Shown piece by piece: positions 3,305-64,000 of a stretch of DNA of 64,000 nucleotides. Source of the stretch: Methylocystis sp. SC2 (lineage in GTDB: Bacteria; Pseudomonadota; Alphaproteobacteria; Rhizobiales; Beijerinckiaceae); assembly GCF_000304315.1 (NCBI RefSeq), contig NC_018485.1, forward strand, positions 652,501-716,500, given 5' to 3'. Position numbers and translations under genes: made by a program. Below the pieces are notes generated by a model, which searched no databases, was not told where the DNA came from, and saw nothing but the letters and a program-made list of their open reading frames with translations. How positions within the stretch are numbered: the stretch's first letter is position 1; each line of letters starts with the position of its first letter.

Positions 3305-4927
3305 ATGATTCGTCTCGAAAACATCAGCAAACAGAATGGTCATCAGATCCTCTTCATCGAAGCCTCCGCGACGCTCCTGAAGGGCGAGAGAGTCGGCCTC
3401 GTCGGCCCCAACGGCGCCGGCAAGACGACCCTCTTTCGGATGATTGCGGGACAGGAGCATCCCGACGAGGGCCAGGTGGCCGTCGATCGCGGCGTGACGA
3501 TCGGCTACTTCAATCAGGACGTCGGCGAGATGTCGGGCCGCAGCGCTGTGTCCGAGGTGATGGACGGCGCGGGTCCGGTCAGCGCCGTGGCTTCCGAGCT
3601 GAAGCAGCTGGAGGACGCCATGGTTGATCCTGACCGGGCGGGCGACATGGAAGAAATCATCGAGCGTTACGGCGAGGTGCAGGCGCGCTTCGAGGAACTG
3701 GACGGCTACGCCCTGGAAGGCCGCGCGCGCGAAATCCTCGCGGGCCTGAGCTTCACGCAGGAGATGATGGACGGCGACGTCGGCGCCCTGTCGGGCGGCT
3801 GGAAAATGCGCGTGGCGCTCGCCCGCATCCTCATCATGCGCCCCGACGCCATGCTTCTCGATGAGCCGAGCAACCATCTCGATTTGGAAAGCCTGATCTG
3901 GCTGGAGGAATTCCTGAAAGCCTATGAGGGCGGGCTGCTGATGACCTCGCATGACCGCGAGTTCATGAACCGCATCGTCACCAAGGTGGTGGAGATCGAC
4001 GGCGGCGCGCTGACGACCTATTCGGGCGATTACGCGTTCTACGAGCAACAACGCGCGCAGAACGAGAAGCAGGCGCAGGCGCAGTTTGAGCGTCAGCAGG
4101 CGATGCTCGCCAAGGAGATCAAGTTCATCGAGCGGTTCAAGGCGCGCGCATCGCACGCCGCGCAGGTGCAGAGCCGCGTGAAGAAGCTCGAGAAGATCGA
4201 CAGGGTGGAGCCGCCCAAGCGCCGCCAGACGATCTTGTTCGAATTCCCGCCGGCGCCGCGCTCCGGCGACGACGTGATCACCCTGAAGAACGTGCACAAG
4301 AGCTACGGCGCGCGGAGAATTTACGAGGGGCTGAACTTTCAAGTGCGCCGCAATGAGCGGTGGTGCGTCATGGGCGTCAACGGCGCGGGCAAGTCGACGC
4401 TGCTGAAATTGGCGGCGGGCGCCTCGCTGCCGGACGACGGCGCCGTCGCCCAGGGCGGCAGCGTCAAAATGGGCTATTTTGCGCAACACGCCATGGAGCT
4501 GCTGGACGGCGAGCGCACCGTGTTCCAGTCGCTGGAGGACTCGTTCCCTCAGGCGGGACAGGGCTCGCTGCGCACGCTGGCCGGCTGCTTCGGCTTCTCC
4601 GGTGACGATGTCGAGAAGAAATGCCGGGTGTTGTCGGGCGGCGAGAAAGCGCGACTCGTCATGGCGAAAATGCTTTACGACCCGCCGAACTTTCTCGTGC
4701 TGGACGAACCCACGAACCATTTGGATCTGGCGACCAAGGAGATGCTCATCACGGCGCTGTCGCACTATGAGGGCGCCATGCTGTTCGTCTCGCACGACCG
4801 GCGCTTTCTGGCGGCGCTATCCAATCGGGTGCTGGAACTGACGCCCGACGGCGTTCATGTTTACGGCGGCGGCTACACCGAATATGTGGCGCGCACCGGC
4901 CAGGAGGCGCCTGGTCTGCGTCGCTGA
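3305..4927 (+). CDS. ABC-F family ATPase (translation factor type)
   Basis: Soluble twin-ATPase protein of 540 residues with no membrane segments, so it is an ABC-F protein acting on the ribosome rather than a transporter. The first ATPase domain shows GPNGAGKTT, LSGGWKMRVALAR and LLDEPSNHLD. The second shows GVNGAGKST, LSGGEKARLVMAK and LVLDEPTNHLD. Between them lies the charged helical linker rich in Q, K and R that defines the family. An open frame extends 44 codons upstream, but ATG at 3305 gives the canonical MIRLENIS start and is preferred. The sequence resembles the YbiT/YheS subgroup; which ABC-F paralogue it is cannot be settled by eye. It is separated from mgtC by 175 bases with no visible terminator. 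Confidence 0.92.
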   Translation: MIRLENISKQNGHQILFIEASATLLKGERVGLVGPNGAGKTTLFRMIAGQEHPDEGQVAVDRGVTIGYFNQDVGEMSGRSAVSEVMDGAGPVSAVASELKQLEDAMVDPDRAGDMEEIIERYGEVQARFEELDGYALEGRAREILAGLSFTQEMMDGDVGALSGGWKMRVALARILIMRPDAMLLDEPSNHLDLESLIWLEEFLKAYEGGLLMTSHDREFMNRIVTKVVEIDGGALTTYSGDYAFYEQQRAQNEKQAQAQFERQQAMLAKEIKFIERFKARASHAAQVQSRVKKLEKIDRVEPPKRRQTILFEFPPAPRSGDDVITLKNVHKSYGARRIYEGLNFQVRRNERWCVMGVNGAGKSTLLKLAAGASLPDDGAVAQGGSVKMGYFAQHAMELLDGERTVFQSLEDSFPQAGQGSLRTLAGCFGFSGDDVEKKCRVLSGGEKARLVMAKMLYDPPNFLVLDEPTNHLDLATKEMLITALSHYEGAMLFVSHDRRFLAALSNRVLELTPDGVHVYGGGYTEYVARTGQEAPGLRR

Positions 4928-58561: not shown

Positions 58562-59684
58562 GAACGTCTGCTTGCGCGTCTTGCGGCGCCCCGGCGCCCT
58601 GCATGAATTCGGCAAGCGCTTCGACGACGCGCTCATTCGCCTCCTGCGCGCCGACGGTGAGCCGCAGGAACTCCCCCATGCCATAGGCGCCGATGGCGCG
58701 CAGCACCAGGCCGCGCGACATGAGGAAGCGGTCGGCGTCGATAGCCGTCAATCCCGGCGCGTCGGGAAAACGTATGGCGACGAAATTGGCGACGCTCGGC
58801 AGAACGTCGAGACCGAGCGCGGAAATTTCTCGCGAGAGCCACGGCAGCCAGCGGTCGTTATGGGCGATCGCCGCGTCGAGATGGGCGCGATCCGACAGGG
58901 CGGCGATCGCCGCTGCTGAACCCGCGCTCGAGACATTGAACGGCGAGCGGATTCGATTCAGCGCGTCGATCACATGCGCGGGCCCGTAGGCCCAGCCGAC
59001 GCGCAGCCCCGCAAGGCCGTAGATTTTCGAGAAGGTGCGGGTCATCACGACATTTTCATGCGCATCCACCAGCGCGACGCCCGCCTCGTAATCCTCGCGT
59101 AGGACATATTCGGCATAGGCGGCGTCGAGCACGAGCAGCACATGCGCGGGCAGCGAACGCGCCAGCCGCGAGACTTCATTCGCGGGCAGGAAAGTGCCGG
59201 TCGGATTGTTCGGATTGGCGAGAAAAACGATCTTCGTTCTCTCGCTCACACAGGCGAGCAGCGCATCAACTTCCGCCGTGTAGTTCGTCTCGGGAGCGAC
59301 GACGGGCGTTCCCCCCGCGGCGAGCGTGACGATCTTGTATTCAAGGAACCCATGCTGGCTGTAGACGCCCTCGTCTCCGGGCCCGATGTAGGCGAGCGCA
59401 AGCAGCTCCAGAAGATTGTCCGAGCCGGCGCCGGCGATGATCCGGTCCGGGTTCAGCGCGTAACGCGCGCCGATCGCCTCGCGCAGGGCGCGCGACGAGC
59501 CTTCGGGATAAAGCGCAATATGGTCCGCCATTCCGCGCAGGGCCTCTATCGCGCGCGGAGATGGCCCGAGCGGCGTCTCATTGGCCGACAATTTGAACAC
59601 GCGCGCAGCGCCCGGCGCGGCGCTCCTGCCGGGCACGTAAGCGTCGATCGCGAGAACGGTTGAACGGGGGCTGGGCTTGGTCAT
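58554..59684 (-). CDS. hisC: Histidinol-phosphate aminotransferase
   Basis: PLP-dependent aminotransferase of 376 residues. It has FKLSANETPLGPSP, GAGSDNLLELLA, FLANPNNPTGTF, DAAYAEYV, and the PLP-binding Lys in TRTFSKIYGLAGLRVGWAYG. Next to tyrC it probably serves phenylalanine and tyrosine synthesis as well as histidine synthesis. ATG at 59684 is chosen by homology; the frame is open further to 59807 without conserved sequence. Confidence 0.92.
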   Translation of the reverse strand: MTKPSPRSTVLAIDAYVPGRSAAPGAARVFKLSANETPLGPSPRAIEALRGMADHIALYPEGSSRALREAIGARYALNPDRIIAGAGSDNLLELLALAYIGPGDEGVYSQHGFLEYKIVTLAAGGTPVVAPETNYTAEVDALLACVSERTKIVFLANPNNPTGTFLPANEVSRLARSLPAHVLLVLDAAYAEYVLREDYEAGVALVDAHENVVMTRTFSKIYGLAGLRVGWAYGPAHVIDALNRIRSPFNVSSAGSAAAIAALSDRAHLDAAIAHNDRWLPWLSREISALGLDVLPSVANFVAIRFPDAPGLTAIDADRFLMSRGLVLRAIGAYGMGEFLRLTVGAQEANERVVEALAEFMQGAGAPQDAQADVHG

Positions 59685-59780
59685 CTCGTCTTTTTTCGGC
59701 GGCGCAACGCAGGGCGATCTCTCATAATCCTTGGCGCATCGCGCGCAAAGCCTTTCGAGGACGGGCTGAGAGTCTTTACA

Positions 59781-59813
59781 AACAGTGTGTGTGTATATTA
59801 AACACATACTGTT
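59781..59813 (+). promoter_or_regulatory. Palindromic operator upstream of the antitoxin-toxin pair
   Basis: An imperfect 33-base inverted repeat starts AACAGTGTGTGTG and ends ACACATACTGTT, centred on TATATT. It lies 15 bases before the antitoxin ATG, and AAGGAGG follows it. This is the expected place for autorepression by the antitoxin. Confidence 0.6.
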
Positions 59814-59827
59814 CGAAGGAGGAAGCC

Positions 59828-60337
59828 ATGTCCAAATACGAATCCCTGACCGTCTATTTGCGCAAGCAGCCTTATCGCGAGGTCAGCTGCAGTTTTCGCG
59901 ATCTCGAGAAGATTCTCGGCTTCGAGCTTCCCTCCTCAGCGCGCCAGCATCGGGCTTGGTGGTCGAACAACGGCTCGAATAATGTGATGACGAAGGCGTG
60001 GCTGAGCGCCGGTTACCGCACGCGCGACGTGGATATGGAAAGCGAGCGCCTGACATTCGAACGCACAGGCGCCGCCGCGCCCGATCCCGACACGCCGCCG
60101 ACGGCTCCTTCGCCGCAACCGCCGGACGATCTCGCGCTCGTCCAGCGAGTGCTGGAAGTTCTGCGCGGCGATGACGAACATCAAGCGCAGAAGCTTCGCC
60201 GCGCGATCATCGCCGCGCTAGCGACGCCAAAGACCGAATCCGTTCTCGATATTTTTGCGTCCGACCTGCCAGACGACACGTTCGAAGGAGTCTTCCCGCA
60301 GAGACGTGAAAGCGGCTGGCGCGAGATCGATCTATGA
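59828..60337 (+). CDS. Probable antitoxin with DUF7662-like N-terminal domain
   Basis: Protein of 169 residues. Residues 1-80 form a compact domain (SKYESLTVYLRKQPYREVSC, ILGFELPSSARQHRAWWSNN and KAWLSAGYRTRDVDMESERL) of the DUF7662 type, which is not one of the classical VapB folds. A Pro-rich linker (85-100) leads to a C-terminal region with helices (LALVQRVLEVL) and an extended end, LDIFASDLPDDTFEG, that resembles the toxin-neutralising tails of antitoxins. It overlaps the vapC start by 4 bases (ATGA) and has a palindrome and strong AAGGAGG site upstream. Toxin neutralisation is inferred from this arrangement. Confidence 0.75.
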   Translation: MSKYESLTVYLRKQPYREVSCSFRDLEKILGFELPSSARQHRAWWSNNGSNNVMTKAWLSAGYRTRDVDMESERLTFERTGAAAPDPDTPPTAPSPQPPDDLALVQRVLEVLRGDDEHQAQKLRRAIIAALATPKTESVLDIFASDLPDDTFEGVFPQRRESGWREIDL

Positions 60338-60759
60338 AATTTCTGCTCGACACGAACGTCATCTCGGAACTGCGGAAAGGAACGCGCGCGCATCCCAACG
60401 TCGTCGCCTGGGCGCAGTCCATCGACCCGCGCGATCTTGCAACGAGCGTCCTCGTGCTCGCCGAGATTCGCCGTGGCGTCGAGTTGAAGCGACTGAAAGA
60501 CCCGGCGCAGGCGGAGAGGCTCGACGCGTGGTTCGCACGCATGCGCGATAAATTGGAAGACCGCGTCCTTCCGGTCGACGAAGCCGTCGCTGATTGCTGG
60601 GCGCGGCTGAACATTCCCAATCCCCTGCCCTTCGTCGACGGCCTGATGGCGGCGACGGCTCTGGCGCGCGGACTCGTTCTCGTGACGCGCAATATACGCG
60701 ACGTCGCGGTCACGGGCGCACAGGTCCTGGATCCTTTCGCCGGTCCAGGCGAGGCCTAG
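60334..60759 (+). CDS. vapC: PIN-domain toxin (VapC/FitB-like RNase)
   Basis: Ribonuclease toxin of 141 residues. It keeps the PIN acidic residues: Asp6 (FLLDTNVISELRKG), Glu in LAEIRRGVELKRL, and Asp in PFVDGLMAATAL, followed by VTRNIRDV. These should hold metal for cleaving RNA. Its ATG overlaps the stop of the antitoxin gene by 4 bases. The next gene, on the other strand, ends 6 bases away, so the module is inserted tightly. Confidence 0.92.
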   Translation: MKFLLDTNVISELRKGTRAHPNVVAWAQSIDPRDLATSVLVLAEIRRGVELKRLKDPAQAERLDAWFARMRDKLEDRVLPVDEAVADCWARLNIPNPLPFVDGLMAATALARGLVLVTRNIRDVAVTGAQVLDPFAGPGEA

Positions 60760-60765
60760 GCCGAG

Positions 60766-61638
60766 TTAGGGCGCGAAGACGCCGCTGCGCGCGTCGTTAA
60801 GCTGGAAGCGCATCGCATGGCTGCCGATCACGTCGACGCGCGCGCCCTCCACCCCCGCCTCGGCCAATGCTTTGGCGAAGGACTGGGCGTCGGCGTCGCC
60901 GGCGGCGGCGACAAGCAGCGCGAGCCCTTCCGGATGGGGCGCGCTCGCGAGGATTTCGCCTTTGAGCGTCTGGAAAGCGGCGGGCAGCGCATGCGTCCAG
61001 CGCGCGAGGCCGACCGCATAAAGCGTCACGCCATGCGCCATGGCCTCGGCCGGGAGCCGCGCGACGACGAACATCGGCAGACCCGCGGGATGATTGGGCC
61101 GCTCGACGAAAGGCAGGCGCGCGATGATCTTGGGGGCGCCTTCGCCAACGAGGCGCATCCACCAGGCGCCATCCGACAGCCCGCCGGTCGCGCGCAAGAT
61201 CCCCAGATCGCCGGTCGACGCGGCGACCGCGTCGATCACCGCGCCGGCGCCGTGATGCGCGACATAGGGAACGGTGAAGCCGAAGTGGAAGCGCGCCGAA
61301 TCGCGCATCTGCGCGTCGCCGCCGGAATCATCGGCATGCACCGAATAATTCGCCTGCACATAGGTGAAGGTCGAGACGATGACGCGCCAAACGCCTTCGA
61401 CGGCGTCGAGCGGCAGGAGCCCCTGATGACGCTCGACCAGCGCGCGCATCATCTGCGCCTCGCGATCGGGCCTGAAGGCGCAGCCGACGCCCTGCGCGCG
61501 CTTCACGGCGATCAGCCGGTCGATGATCTCGCCGCGCTCCATCAACAGCCGATGCATGTCGCGATCGATCCGATCGATCTCGTCGCGCAATTCGGCAAGC
61601 GTGTCCGCGGCGGGCATGAGCAAAGGCGCATTCTGCAT
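60766..61638 (-). CDS. Chorismate mutase with a degenerate prephenate-dehydratase-like domain
   Basis: Enzyme of 290 residues converting chorismate to prephenate. The AroQ-type helices carry the substrate-binding basic residues in ELRDEIDRIDRDMHRLLMER, LIAVKRAQG and FRPDREAQMMRAL. The C-terminal ~190 residues form an alpha/beta region that recalls a decayed prephenate dehydratase domain, as in other alphaproteobacterial chorismate mutases. ATG at 61638 is chosen by homology. It should belong with hisC and tyrC, but two toxin-antitoxin modules now flank it. Confidence 0.86.
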   Translation of the reverse strand: MQNAPLLMPAADTLAELRDEIDRIDRDMHRLLMERGEIIDRLIAVKRAQGVGCAFRPDREAQMMRALVERHQGLLPLDAVEGVWRVIVSTFTYVQANYSVHADDSGGDAQMRDSARFHFGFTVPYVAHHGAGAVIDAVAASTGDLGILRATGGLSDGAWWMRLVGEGAPKIIARLPFVERPNHPAGLPMFVVARLPAEAMAHGVTLYAVGLARWTHALPAAFQTLKGEILASAPHPEGLALLVAAAGDADAQSFAKALAEAGVEGARVDVIGSHAMRFQLNDARSGVFAP

Positions 61639-61752: not shown

Positions 61753-62049
61753 ATGCAATCACCGGCTGCAAAGATCAAGCGCACAAAGCGCGAAACATCC
61801 GAGACCTTCACCGTGCGGGTCGGTCCCGAGATCAAGAAACGGCTCGCCAGCCTCGCGGCGAGCACGGGCCGCCGCCGCTCCTTTCTCACGGCCGAGGCCA
61901 TCGCCGAATGTGTCGACGCCAACGAGTGGCAAGTCGCCGGAATTCGCCAAGCCCTGGGCTCTCTCGATCGCGGCGGCGGCGTTGAACATGAAGACGTGCG
62001 CCATTGGATCGAGAGCTGGGAAACGCCTGACGAAACGCGTCGACCTTGA
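61753..62049 (+). CDS. parD: Ribbon-helix-helix antitoxin (ParD/CopG-like)
   Basis: DNA-binding antitoxin of 98 residues. The N-terminal ribbon-helix-helix is TFTVRVGPEIKKRLASLAAS and GRRRSFLTAEAIAECV; the C-terminal half (EHEDVRHWIESWETPDE) is the toxin-binding tail. ATG at 61753 gives the normal start. Its stop TGA overlaps a TTG that would start the toxin gene, which is broken (next entry). Without a working toxin it may persist as an orphan or cross-reacting antitoxin. Confidence 0.85.
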   Translation: MQSPAAKIKRTKRETSETFTVRVGPEIKKRLASLAASTGRRRSFLTAEAIAECVDANEWQVAGIRQALGSLDRGGGVEHEDVRHWIESWETPDETRRP

Positions 62050-62331
62050 AGATAATCTGGGCGCCGAGGCGATCGACGATCTCGCCGCCCTACGCGCACA
62101 AATTTCACGGGACAATCCCGCGGCTGCGCGACGCGTCGCCCTTCACCTTCTCGAAATGATCGGGACGCCTCTTGCGGAGAATCCGCCTATCGGCCGCCCC
62201 GGCCGCGTGCCTGGAACGCGCGAATTCGTCATCGACAAGACGCCTTACATCGTTCCTTATCGCGTCAAGGAAACGCGCTTCAGATATTGCGCATCTATCA
62301 TGGGGCGCGTCGCTGGCCGGAGTCGCTGTGA
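62046..62331 (+). pseudogene. parE: parE-like toxin gene with two single-base deletions
   Basis: The pieces of a ParE/RelE-family toxin can be read in three frames. The start TTG at 62046 gives MKIIWAP, which then needs one extra base near 62065 to continue as EAIDDLAALRAQISRDNPAA and on through GRPGRVPGTREFVIDKTPYI. One more base near 62277 is needed to reach the proper C-terminus, LQILRIYHGARRWPESL and the stop TGA at 62329-62331. Both changes are losses of one base, so the intact product is not made from this sequence. A sequencing error is possible but would have to occur twice. It lies directly after parD with the usual stop-start overlap. Confidence 0.82.
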
Positions 62332-62588
62332 GGTCAGCCTGCGCCTTCCAAAAGGCGGTGGGTCATCGGTTTGAATTTCGGCTTGCGGCCCGCAGCAGTC
62401 GCCCCGCTGAGCGGATGATGAAGGGCTTGATTTGACCCTTGACGGACCTTCCTGTCTTCACTGTGCTCTCGGCCAGCTGAGCGCAAACCGCGACTTGCGG
62501 ACGTTAATTGGTTTTCCAGCAAACCCAGACTTCCCGGATCGGCTACAAAGCCATACAGTTACTTAAAACAAGATTTGTGAGACCTCGA
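62332..62588 (+). other. Spacer between broken parE and the DUF262 gene
   Basis: These 257 bases contain no conserved frame and look like mixed sequence at the border of an accessory region. Base composition falls from about 62,500 onward. A promoter for the following operon must be near 62,500-62,580, but none is clear. Confidence 0.4.
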
Positions 62589-63689
62589 ATGCTCAAAGAC
62601 GAAATCGATGCAGCAAAGCGCGCGGTGAATACAGACACCGTTCAGATCACCATCGGAGAAGTGAGCAACATGTACACTTCCAGTGAACTGAATATTTTGC
62701 CTGACTTTCAAAGACTGTTCCGGTGGACAAACGAACGCAAGTCCAGTTTTGTCGAATCCATATTAATAGGCATACCCATCCCTCCGGTATTTGTTTACGA
62801 AAAAGAGGATGGCACTTGGGAGCTGATCGATGGGCTTCAGCGGATCTCCACGTTGCTAGAGTTCATGGGAGTTTTGAGGGATGTCGACTCTGGCGAAATT
62901 CTTCGATCCCGGCTTCAAAAGACTAAGTATCTGAGGTCACTCCAAGGCATGGTTTGGGAGCAGAAGGCAGAAGGCGAGATACAGATCGACAAGGCCCTCC
63001 AGCTGTTCTTCCGCAGAGCGCGACTGGATTTCCAGATACTCAAGCACCCCAGCGACCCAAAGACCAAGTTCGATCTTTTCCAGCGCCTCAATCGGGGCGG
63101 AGCGTACGCAAACGAGCAGGAAGTGAGGACCTGCTCGATGGTCTTGGCGAATGCCGAGTTCACTCAGGCCATCCGTCAAGTCGCCCAGCGGAACGACGTG
63201 GCTGGCATCTTTCAGATCACCTCCGAACAGAAGGCGGTTCAGCGGGACGTCGAGTACATTGTGCGAATGATTGTACATACGTTCGTCGACTATGACCGCA
63301 GCTTGGACGTGCAGGAGTTTCTTGACGCCGCAATAGTTGAAATCCTGACGGATAGAGATTGCGACGAAGTGATGCAAACAATCACTTGGACCCTAGAAAC
63401 TCTTCATAGGATTCTTGGCGACAGAGCTTTGATGCCCCCGCAAGGCGCTGAGGAGGGCATTGCTAGGCGGTTCTCGCTGCGAGCGCTCGAGGCAATCGCA
63501 GTGGGGGTCGCGAGAAATAAGGCTGCGATAGTGGTTCACGCGAACCCTGACCAGTTTGTAAAGGACAGGATCGAAGGCTTCTGGCGGGAGCGCCAGGTCG
63601 CCGAGATGAGTGCATCCGGGCTCCGAGGGACCGTCAGATTGCAGCGGACAATTCCGTTCGGGGCGCAGTGGTTCAATCCCAATGCCTAA
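62589..63689 (+). CDS. DUF262 (GmrS-like) protein
   Basis: Protein of 366 residues with a DUF262 domain, related to the ParB/GmrS fold: LPDFQRLFRW (37-46), ESILIGIPIPPVF, and DGLQRISTLL (81-90), where DGxQR is the nucleotide- and catalysis-linked motif. The DUF1524 HNH nuclease domain of full GmrSD is not present; the rest is helical with FQRLNRGGAYANEQEVR. ATG at 62589 starts the conserved region. The next gene begins inside its last codons. Codon use is less GC-rich than the chromosome, which suggests transfer. Anti-phage function is inferred. Confidence 0.85.
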   Translation: MLKDEIDAAKRAVNTDTVQITIGEVSNMYTSSELNILPDFQRLFRWTNERKSSFVESILIGIPIPPVFVYEKEDGTWELIDGLQRISTLLEFMGVLRDVDSGEILRSRLQKTKYLRSLQGMVWEQKAEGEIQIDKALQLFFRRARLDFQILKHPSDPKTKFDLFQRLNRGGAYANEQEVRTCSMVLANAEFTQAIRQVAQRNDVAGIFQITSEQKAVQRDVEYIVRMIVHTFVDYDRSLDVQEFLDAAIVEILTDRDCDEVMQTITWTLETLHRILGDRALMPPQGAEEGIARRFSLRALEAIAVGVARNKAAIVVHANPDQFVKDRIEGFWRERQVAEMSASGLRGTVRLQRTIPFGAQWFNPNA

Positions 63690-64000
63690 ACCGGACGAAT
63701 TTTTTGACGAGATCGACACCGCCAGGGTGCGCCGCGCGAAGGAGCTGTCCGAGATCAAGAGATCATTCGGACAGCTGGTCACGAACGACGTCTACGGAGT
63801 TGCATCGAAGGCCGTGGTCGTTCTCGCTTACGCCAACTGGGAAGGCTTCTACAACGAATGCGCTCGCGCGTACATCAGGTTTCTTACCCAGAAAGGAGGA
63901 AAGGTACGCGACCGAGACTGGATGCTATTGGTCGGCGCGTTTGATACCGATTTCGAAAGCCTACGAGACCGAAACCATTCGCTTGAGTCCCGTCTATCCT
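63682..64000 (+). CDS. MAE_28990-like HEPN protein (partial)
   Basis: The start ATG at 63682 overlaps the DUF262 gene by 8 bases, and the frame stays open to the window edge (106 residues). The opening (TARVRRAKELSEIKRSFGQL, then KAVVVLAYANWEGFYNECAR and YIRFLTQKGGKV) matches the MAE_28990/MAE_18760-like HEPN family, a group of predicted RNases often found beside DUF262 proteins. The catalytic RxxxxH region would lie beyond the edge, so activity cannot be judged. The coupling to DUF262 is direct sequence evidence for a two-protein system. Confidence 0.75.
   Translation, partial: MPKPDEFFDEIDTARVRRAKELSEIKRSFGQLVTNDVYGVASKAVVVLAYANWEGFYNECARAYIRFLTQKGGKVRDRDWMLLVGAFDTDFESLRDRNHSLESRLS

Follow-up and report, generated by a model that had tools for sequence, protein, structure and literature searches.

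A DUF262 gene and an overlapping HEPN gene of Methylocystis sp. SC2 constitute a mobile cassette that moves as a unit. They lie at the 3' end of the window, the 64,000-nucleotide stretch of DNA analysed here (bases 652501-716500 of a 3,773,444-base single-contig genome). We consider it reasonably probable that the pair is a two-gene anti-phage cassette, in which an NTP-gated sensor would release a HEPN RNase and the cell would be halted.

Both genes are on the forward strand. The DUF262 gene (GmrSD_N, ParB/Srx-like NTPase fold; 62589..63689) runs from an ATG at 62589, the very base at which the preliminary description began the finding, to a stop codon at 63687-63689, and encodes 366 aa without a DUF1524/HNH nuclease domain. 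The HEPN gene, of MAE_28990 / RiboL-PSP type, starts at 63682, inside the DUF262 gene; the HEPN start and the DUF262 stop share ATGCCTAA (63682..63689, forward strand), the 8-base overlap reported earlier. Occupying 63682..64000 of the window, the HEPN frame is indeed cut by its edge and runs on to 64311 (4183-4812 of the extended locus L005). It had been left open whether this frame would end without a HEPN motif, and an extension past 64000 had been proposed: the complete frame has 209 aa and contains an intact RHAVAHG, and it is followed by recN (64484-66196), with no further operon gene. Because recN, on the opposite strand, comes next after HEPN, the operon has two genes; for the same reason, a DUF1524 gene farther downstream is ruled out. 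The pair lies in AT-richer sequence, as first described, with 53.4% GC against 64.2% for the window, and 9 of 623 pair-sized sliding windows (step 100) are equally low.

The DUF262 protein matches the Pfam family GmrSD_N (PF03235) at 8.5e-23 and 81.9 bits (cutoff 33.2). Neither it nor the HEPN protein has a DUF1524/HNH match in Pfam at E ≤ 1. Its NTP-pocket motif DGLQR spans residues 81-85, and D81, G82, Q84 and R85 are among the 16 residues that are invariant in an alignment of 19 sequences; in a set of 48 DUF262-HEPN pairs, defined below, DGxQR is kept in all 48 DUF262 proteins. The AlphaFold model (pLDDT 88.8) finds its best solved-structure match in BrxU, and single-sequence searches of solved structures gave nothing useful. 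The protein is thus predicted, from this model, to be a BrxU/SspE/ParB-like sensor minus the HNH nuclease.

The HEPN protein scores above cutoff with two Pfam families, higher with PF18735 (HEPN_RiboL-PSP; 1.4e-20, 74.5 bits) than with PF18737 (HEPN_MAE_28990; 2.9e-18, 67.3 bits, cutoff 26.8). Its Rx4H motif is complete (R167-HAVA-H172-G173). Residues Y50, E54, R167, H172 and G173 are invariant in all 16 aligned sequences, and Rx4HG is kept in 48 of the 48 HEPN proteins of the pair set. The AlphaFold model predicts an all-helical fold; a comparison of the HEPN profile with solved structures returned 21 rows, all of them DNA polymerase IV with E about 0.4. In PADLOC there is no match for the window HEPN at E ≤ 10, and none of the PADLOC and NCBIfam models matches the HEPN proteins convincingly (best E 0.02). 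Judged by its motif, the protein is probably an RNase. The ParB/GmrS-like sensor beside a probable RNase, proposed in the preliminary description, is supported as a gene pair.

The two genes are inherited together. With the window HEPN (P0002) as query, six of 298 genomes of the family have a match, its own included, and DUF262 adjoins it in five; the sixth match lies in a 63-aa frame, and no DUF262 was found there. The HEPN profile A1 matches 12 of 398 genomes of the phylum, with an adjacent DUF262 in 11 (own genome included), a survey that leans towards pairing, since the HEPNs that went into A1 were neighbours of DUF262; the one genome without it gave the weakest match (E=6.6e-4). Among 72,556 plasmid records, P0002 alone found no HEPN relative, and the HEPN of the relative L034 found nine records, all nine with an adjacent DUF262 match by coordinates and six of them with the region read; this survey leans likewise, because its query was itself found via pairing, and the family survey used the window protein alone. 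The DUF262 profile A3 gave 29 loci on viral contigs, several of them near-duplicates, with HEPN directly downstream in 27; of the remaining two, one contig ends first and one has none. Across the 48 pairs, the DUF262 and HEPN trees correlate with r=0.843 (maximum of 2000 permutations, 0.339), which is support and not proof, because relatedness alone inflates the value. The co-inheritance on which the preliminary description had suggested a survey is therefore upheld, and the counts rule out chance adjacency of DUF262 and HEPN.

The commonest junctions among the 48 pairs are overlaps of 4 bp (13 pairs) and 8 bp (5 pairs), the HEPN start of the viral loci being the one chosen nearest the DUF262 end. 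Outside the set are L035 (split by its record), L036 (DUF262 in two annotated pieces), L042 (partner without a HEPN match), L147 (contig ends before HEPN), L011 and L170 (no HEPN), L020 and L024 (weak HEPN) and the other DUF262 loci with other partners, as well as duplicates and near-duplicates (L028-L031, L046-L055, L057, L092, L102-L105, L144/L145, L157, L162, L163, L172, L173). The MAE_28990 branch is found on chromosomes, on plasmids of Actinomycetota, Spirochaetota and Pseudomonadota, and on viral contigs. A DUF262 relative is also present in 20 phage records, with HEPN in both of the two regions read. This context of plasmids, phage records and viral contigs, partly beside restriction-modification genes, agrees with the earlier label of a candidate defence pair. 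In L035, a 5.7-kb mobilizable Enterobacter plasmid (CP056768.1), the pair runs across the position where the circular record begins, and a RelE/HTH pair is also aboard. At a coverage of at least 80%, 3 of 5426 E. coli genomes contain the pair of the P2-like phage P2_4B2 (L045), which adjoins a cytosine methyltransferase (any match, 7), and 8 of 5426 contain another version, carried on plasmids (L039; any match, 9).

Transfer of the pair is seen in a comparison with Nitrobacter winogradskyi (contig NZ_BJNF01000089.1), whose DUF262 is 89% identical to that of the window. The DNA is 85% identical over 1,794 bp, a span that opens 70 bp 5' of the DUF262 start and closes with the HEPN stop codon; the compared stretches (19 kb and 7.3 kb) have no match outside it. 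The upstream border rests on little sequence, because the Nitrobacter contig extends only 120 bases further in that direction; downstream of its cassette are frames like the conjugation proteins TraG/VirD4, TrbB and TrbC, named by reading. The stretch at 62519..62588 (forward strand), where the Nitrobacter identity begins, moves with the cassette and is its probable promoter region. Between the two copies dN/dS is 0.105 for DUF262 and 0.089 for HEPN, and both genes are therefore under purifying selection. The repeats that flank the cassette are solely short and chance-like.

The place beside recN is a small variable site, because six close relatives differ there and all of them are without the pair. 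These six, with RecN 95-97% identical and a flanking backbone of 90-97% DNA identity, come from a comparison of eight of the 18 same-genus genomes; in the two more distant ones, G017 and G241, the flanks are rearranged or not aligned. The flanks abut in G190 and are about 0.65 kb apart in G234 and G226, and other sequence fills the site in G215 (3.2 kb), G261 (1.8 kb) and G247 (2.3 kb). The site corresponds to window 62452-64483, and the cargo of these last three (L095, L096, L098) differs: a patatin-like phospholipase with an inactive-HKD domain and a 295-aa protein in G215, two proteins of 279 and 201 aa without a Pfam match in G261, and an oxidoreductase-like protein, by reading of the sequence, in G247. 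It resembles a small hotspot for cassettes of the defence type. The term defence island, used in the preliminary description, is no more than weakly true here, as the cassette sits alone at this site.

The pair had also been placed directly after toxin-antitoxin genes, which is right in outline. The neighbours, outside the cassette and on the forward strand, are a ribbon-helix-helix antitoxin-like gene (61753..62049; HicB PF05534 at 6.3e-4 and 20 bits, cutoff 21) and a frame read as ParE/RelE-like (62047..62374), which looks frameshifted at both ends against 95-aa frames in three relatives. The ribbon-helix-helix stretch occurs without the DUF262-HEPN pair in G215, G261 and G247. Farther upstream, window 59834-60759 encodes a DUF7662 protein and then a PIN-domain protein; the two genes overlap by 4 bp and may form a toxin-antitoxin pair. 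Four of the six close relatives are without the surrounding stretch, 59684-60770. Just 5' of the cassette, the approximately 73 bp at 62366-62438 resemble three further stretches of the genome, some of them shorter, at 78-88% identity.

The reverse pairing does not hold, as DUF262 is often found with other partners. Among 36 proteins directly 3' of other DUF262 genes, 16 match HEPN_RiboL-PSP and 13 match AAA_15/DUF3696; thus, DUF262 recurs with two effector kinds, RNase-like or ATPase-like. Left out of these 36 are the MAE_28990-type pairs L007-L010, L012, L121, L133, L134, L139 and L140, together with L122 (no downstream frame), L021 and L142 (cut) and L014 (DUF262 in two pieces). The 36 include a second DUF262-HEPN module of the same genome (G000:C1, about 2893722-2895772; L093 9723-11773), in which the genes are 14 bp apart and the HEPN is different (HEPN_RiboL-PSP at 3.3e-8, motif RHSAAHD). 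A DUF262 relative occurs in 115 plasmid records, and the 11 regions read have a HEPN in eight cases, an ATPase/DUF3696 in two and an unrecognised 203-aa protein in one. The latter, on a 705-kb Cetobacterium plasmid (L042 3968-7169), is a protein without a HEPN match that stands between DUF262 and an Eco57I-type methylase, and perhaps represents another effector family.

We propose the following mechanism for the cassette. DUF262 would be both sensor and gate, through a ParB/sulfiredoxin-type NTP-binding domain and a helical domain; it resembles the front part of GmrSD/BrxU/SspE, minus the DNA-cutting half. The HEPN protein, from the overlapping gene, would be the effector, a metal-independent RNase kept silent in a physical complex with its DUF262 partner. 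A phage cue would act on DUF262; the likeliest cues are a property of the incoming DNA, its modification for example, and an altered nucleotide pool. On binding or hydrolysing NTP, DUF262 would then change its shape and free the HEPN RNase, which would cut RNA and stop the growth of the infected cell, as in abortive defence. Protection against phages is the most likely role of the cassette. What we observe and build upon is the gene structure, the motifs, the co-inheritance, the transfer as a unit, the purifying selection, the predicted folds and, in other branches, the frequent methyltransferase neighbours.

These neighbours bear on the main rival, a PrrC-like guard: the pair would watch a DNA methyltransferase or restriction-modification (R-M) system, and its HEPN RNase would fire once a phage has put that target out of action or the host DNA has lost its methylation. 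At least 17 of the 48 pairs have a DNA methyltransferase or R-M gene no more than 1.3 kb away (methyltransferase results, METHYLTRANSFERASES), a figure that stands without a background rate and is a lower bound, because the search for candidates used six query proteins and catalytic motifs and some flanks are short. Methyltransferases are, moreover, common in phage genomes. The 17 were recognised by annotation (L033, L034, L037, L040, L045) or by Pfam (L038, L091, L106, L107, L112, L152, L156, L160, L161, L164, L167, L169, of which L160 and L161 are barely above cutoff). A few lie very close, separated or overlapping by 4-8 bp: the gene of a type IIG enzyme stops 8 bp short of DUF262 in L106, and in L112 a cytosine methyltransferase overlaps it. 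Guarding by analogy with PrrC is also what Anantharaman et al. (2013; PMC3710099) propose, in the part at hand, for HEPN proteins beside R-M systems. Against it, the other 31 pairs showed no such neighbour, several of their contigs being short, and the motifs and six queries revealed none beside the window pair, the Nitrobacter pair, L146 and the family pairs L102-L105. We favour guarding for the methyltransferase-linked branches and not for the window branch; as an account of the pair it appears rather unlikely.

Overlapping genes, and an occurrence on plasmids, viral contigs and the 5.7-kb mobilizable plasmid, would also suit a toxin-antitoxin module that mainly keeps plasmids or prophages, with HEPN as toxin, DUF262 as antitoxin and defence as a secondary effect. 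The sensor gene comes first, however, and a partner of 366 aa that resembles an enzyme and keeps 16 residues unchanged across 19 sequences, the D, G, Q and R of the NTP pocket included, exceeds what a neutraliser would seem to need; DUF262 also pairs with AAA_15 ATPases in 13 of 36 neighbours. We regard such a module as improbable. Some HEPN domains are inactive (PMC3710099, in part) and ParB/Srx proteins can nick DNA (PMC12839542, in part), yet the full Rx4HG of all 48 pairs makes it highly improbable that HEPN binds RNA or nucleotides without being catalytic and that the work falls to DUF262, for example as DNA nicking through its ParB fold.

It is conceivable, and we suggest it tentatively, that DUF262 is a general plug-in sensor whose DNA nuclease has been swapped for trans effectors, either OLD-like AAA_15 ATPases or HEPN RNases from at least two subfamilies. 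The window cassette might then act as a 'type IV restriction' that senses modification or nucleotides and, by destroying RNA rather than DNA, brings the infected cell to a halt, and the methyltransferase-linked version might read self DNA. A sensor domain common to GmrSD, BrxU, SspE, Menshen, PD-T4-2 and the window pair, with swappable effectors, makes two questions testable: which cue does DUF262 recognise, and does one sensor logic serve effectors that cut DNA, effectors that cut RNA and ATPases? Such tests are eased by the copies that occur naturally on E. coli plasmids and in a P2-like phage of E. coli. The MAE_28990 branch is widespread, yet none of the PADLOC models used convincingly matches its HEPN.

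Altogether, the preliminary reading holds for the coupled genes, the motif and the co-inheritance; its statement that no characterised system combines a HEPN protein with a DUF262 lacking DUF1524 has to be corrected. Pairs of this type were known earlier, and the window pair is a further member. The available part of PMC3710099 lists operons that combine the MAE_28990 HEPN with genes for a ParB nuclease and a DNA methylase: the same family, PF18737, stands there beside a ParB-type (DUF262) gene, but with a methylase, which was not seen beside the window pair. In the open-licence literature we found no experiment or phage test on the DUF262-MAE_28990 HEPN branch, and the portions of PMC12839542 and PMC13092281 at hand describe other HEPN defence systems and no DUF262-HEPN pair.

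PD-T4-2 joins DUF262 to another HEPN, and its protection against T4 is validated by deletion in ECOR65 and transfer to K-12 (Vassallo et al. 2022, PMC9519451, in part). According to the accessible part of PMC10952713, DUF262 without DUF1524 occurs in PD-T4-2, Menshen and Dazbog, and a PF18735 HEPN in PD-T4-2. Three loci taken as PD-T4-2 members from their PD-T4-2_A scores (L114-L116) likewise have two tightly coupled genes, a DUF262 of 362-377 aa and then a small Rx4H protein (RDNAAH, RNRLAH, RCSFAH). Their partner has 165-169 aa, in contrast to 209 aa for the window HEPN, and is not recognisably of the same HEPN subfamily: a profile comparison aligned 27 columns at the motif, with a probability of 0.5% (E 0.12). 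The window DUF262 matches PD-T4-2_A at 1.5e-28 and 97.9 bits, against 448-557 bits for the three best loci, the PADLOC library giving no cutoff for this model. Its partner gene, with that profile result and no PADLOC match, rules out the window pair as PD-T4-2.

The best PADLOC model for the window DUF262 is NsnA (3.2e-50); NsnA, NsnB and NsnC are names that we take to belong to Menshen, and a literature search on NsnA/NsnB returned unrelated papers with nothing pertinent. NsnB is an AAA_15/DUF3696-type ATPase (its model matches the DUF3696 protein of L044 at 2.8e-113), whereas the window has a HEPN in that place and then recN, so that Menshen is ruled out as well. With the type IV-like enzymes GmrSD, BrxU and SspE, finally, the window pair has in common the N-terminal DUF262 domain and its NTP-pocket motif; it differs from them in being without DUF1524/HNH, its effector being a separate HEPN protein.
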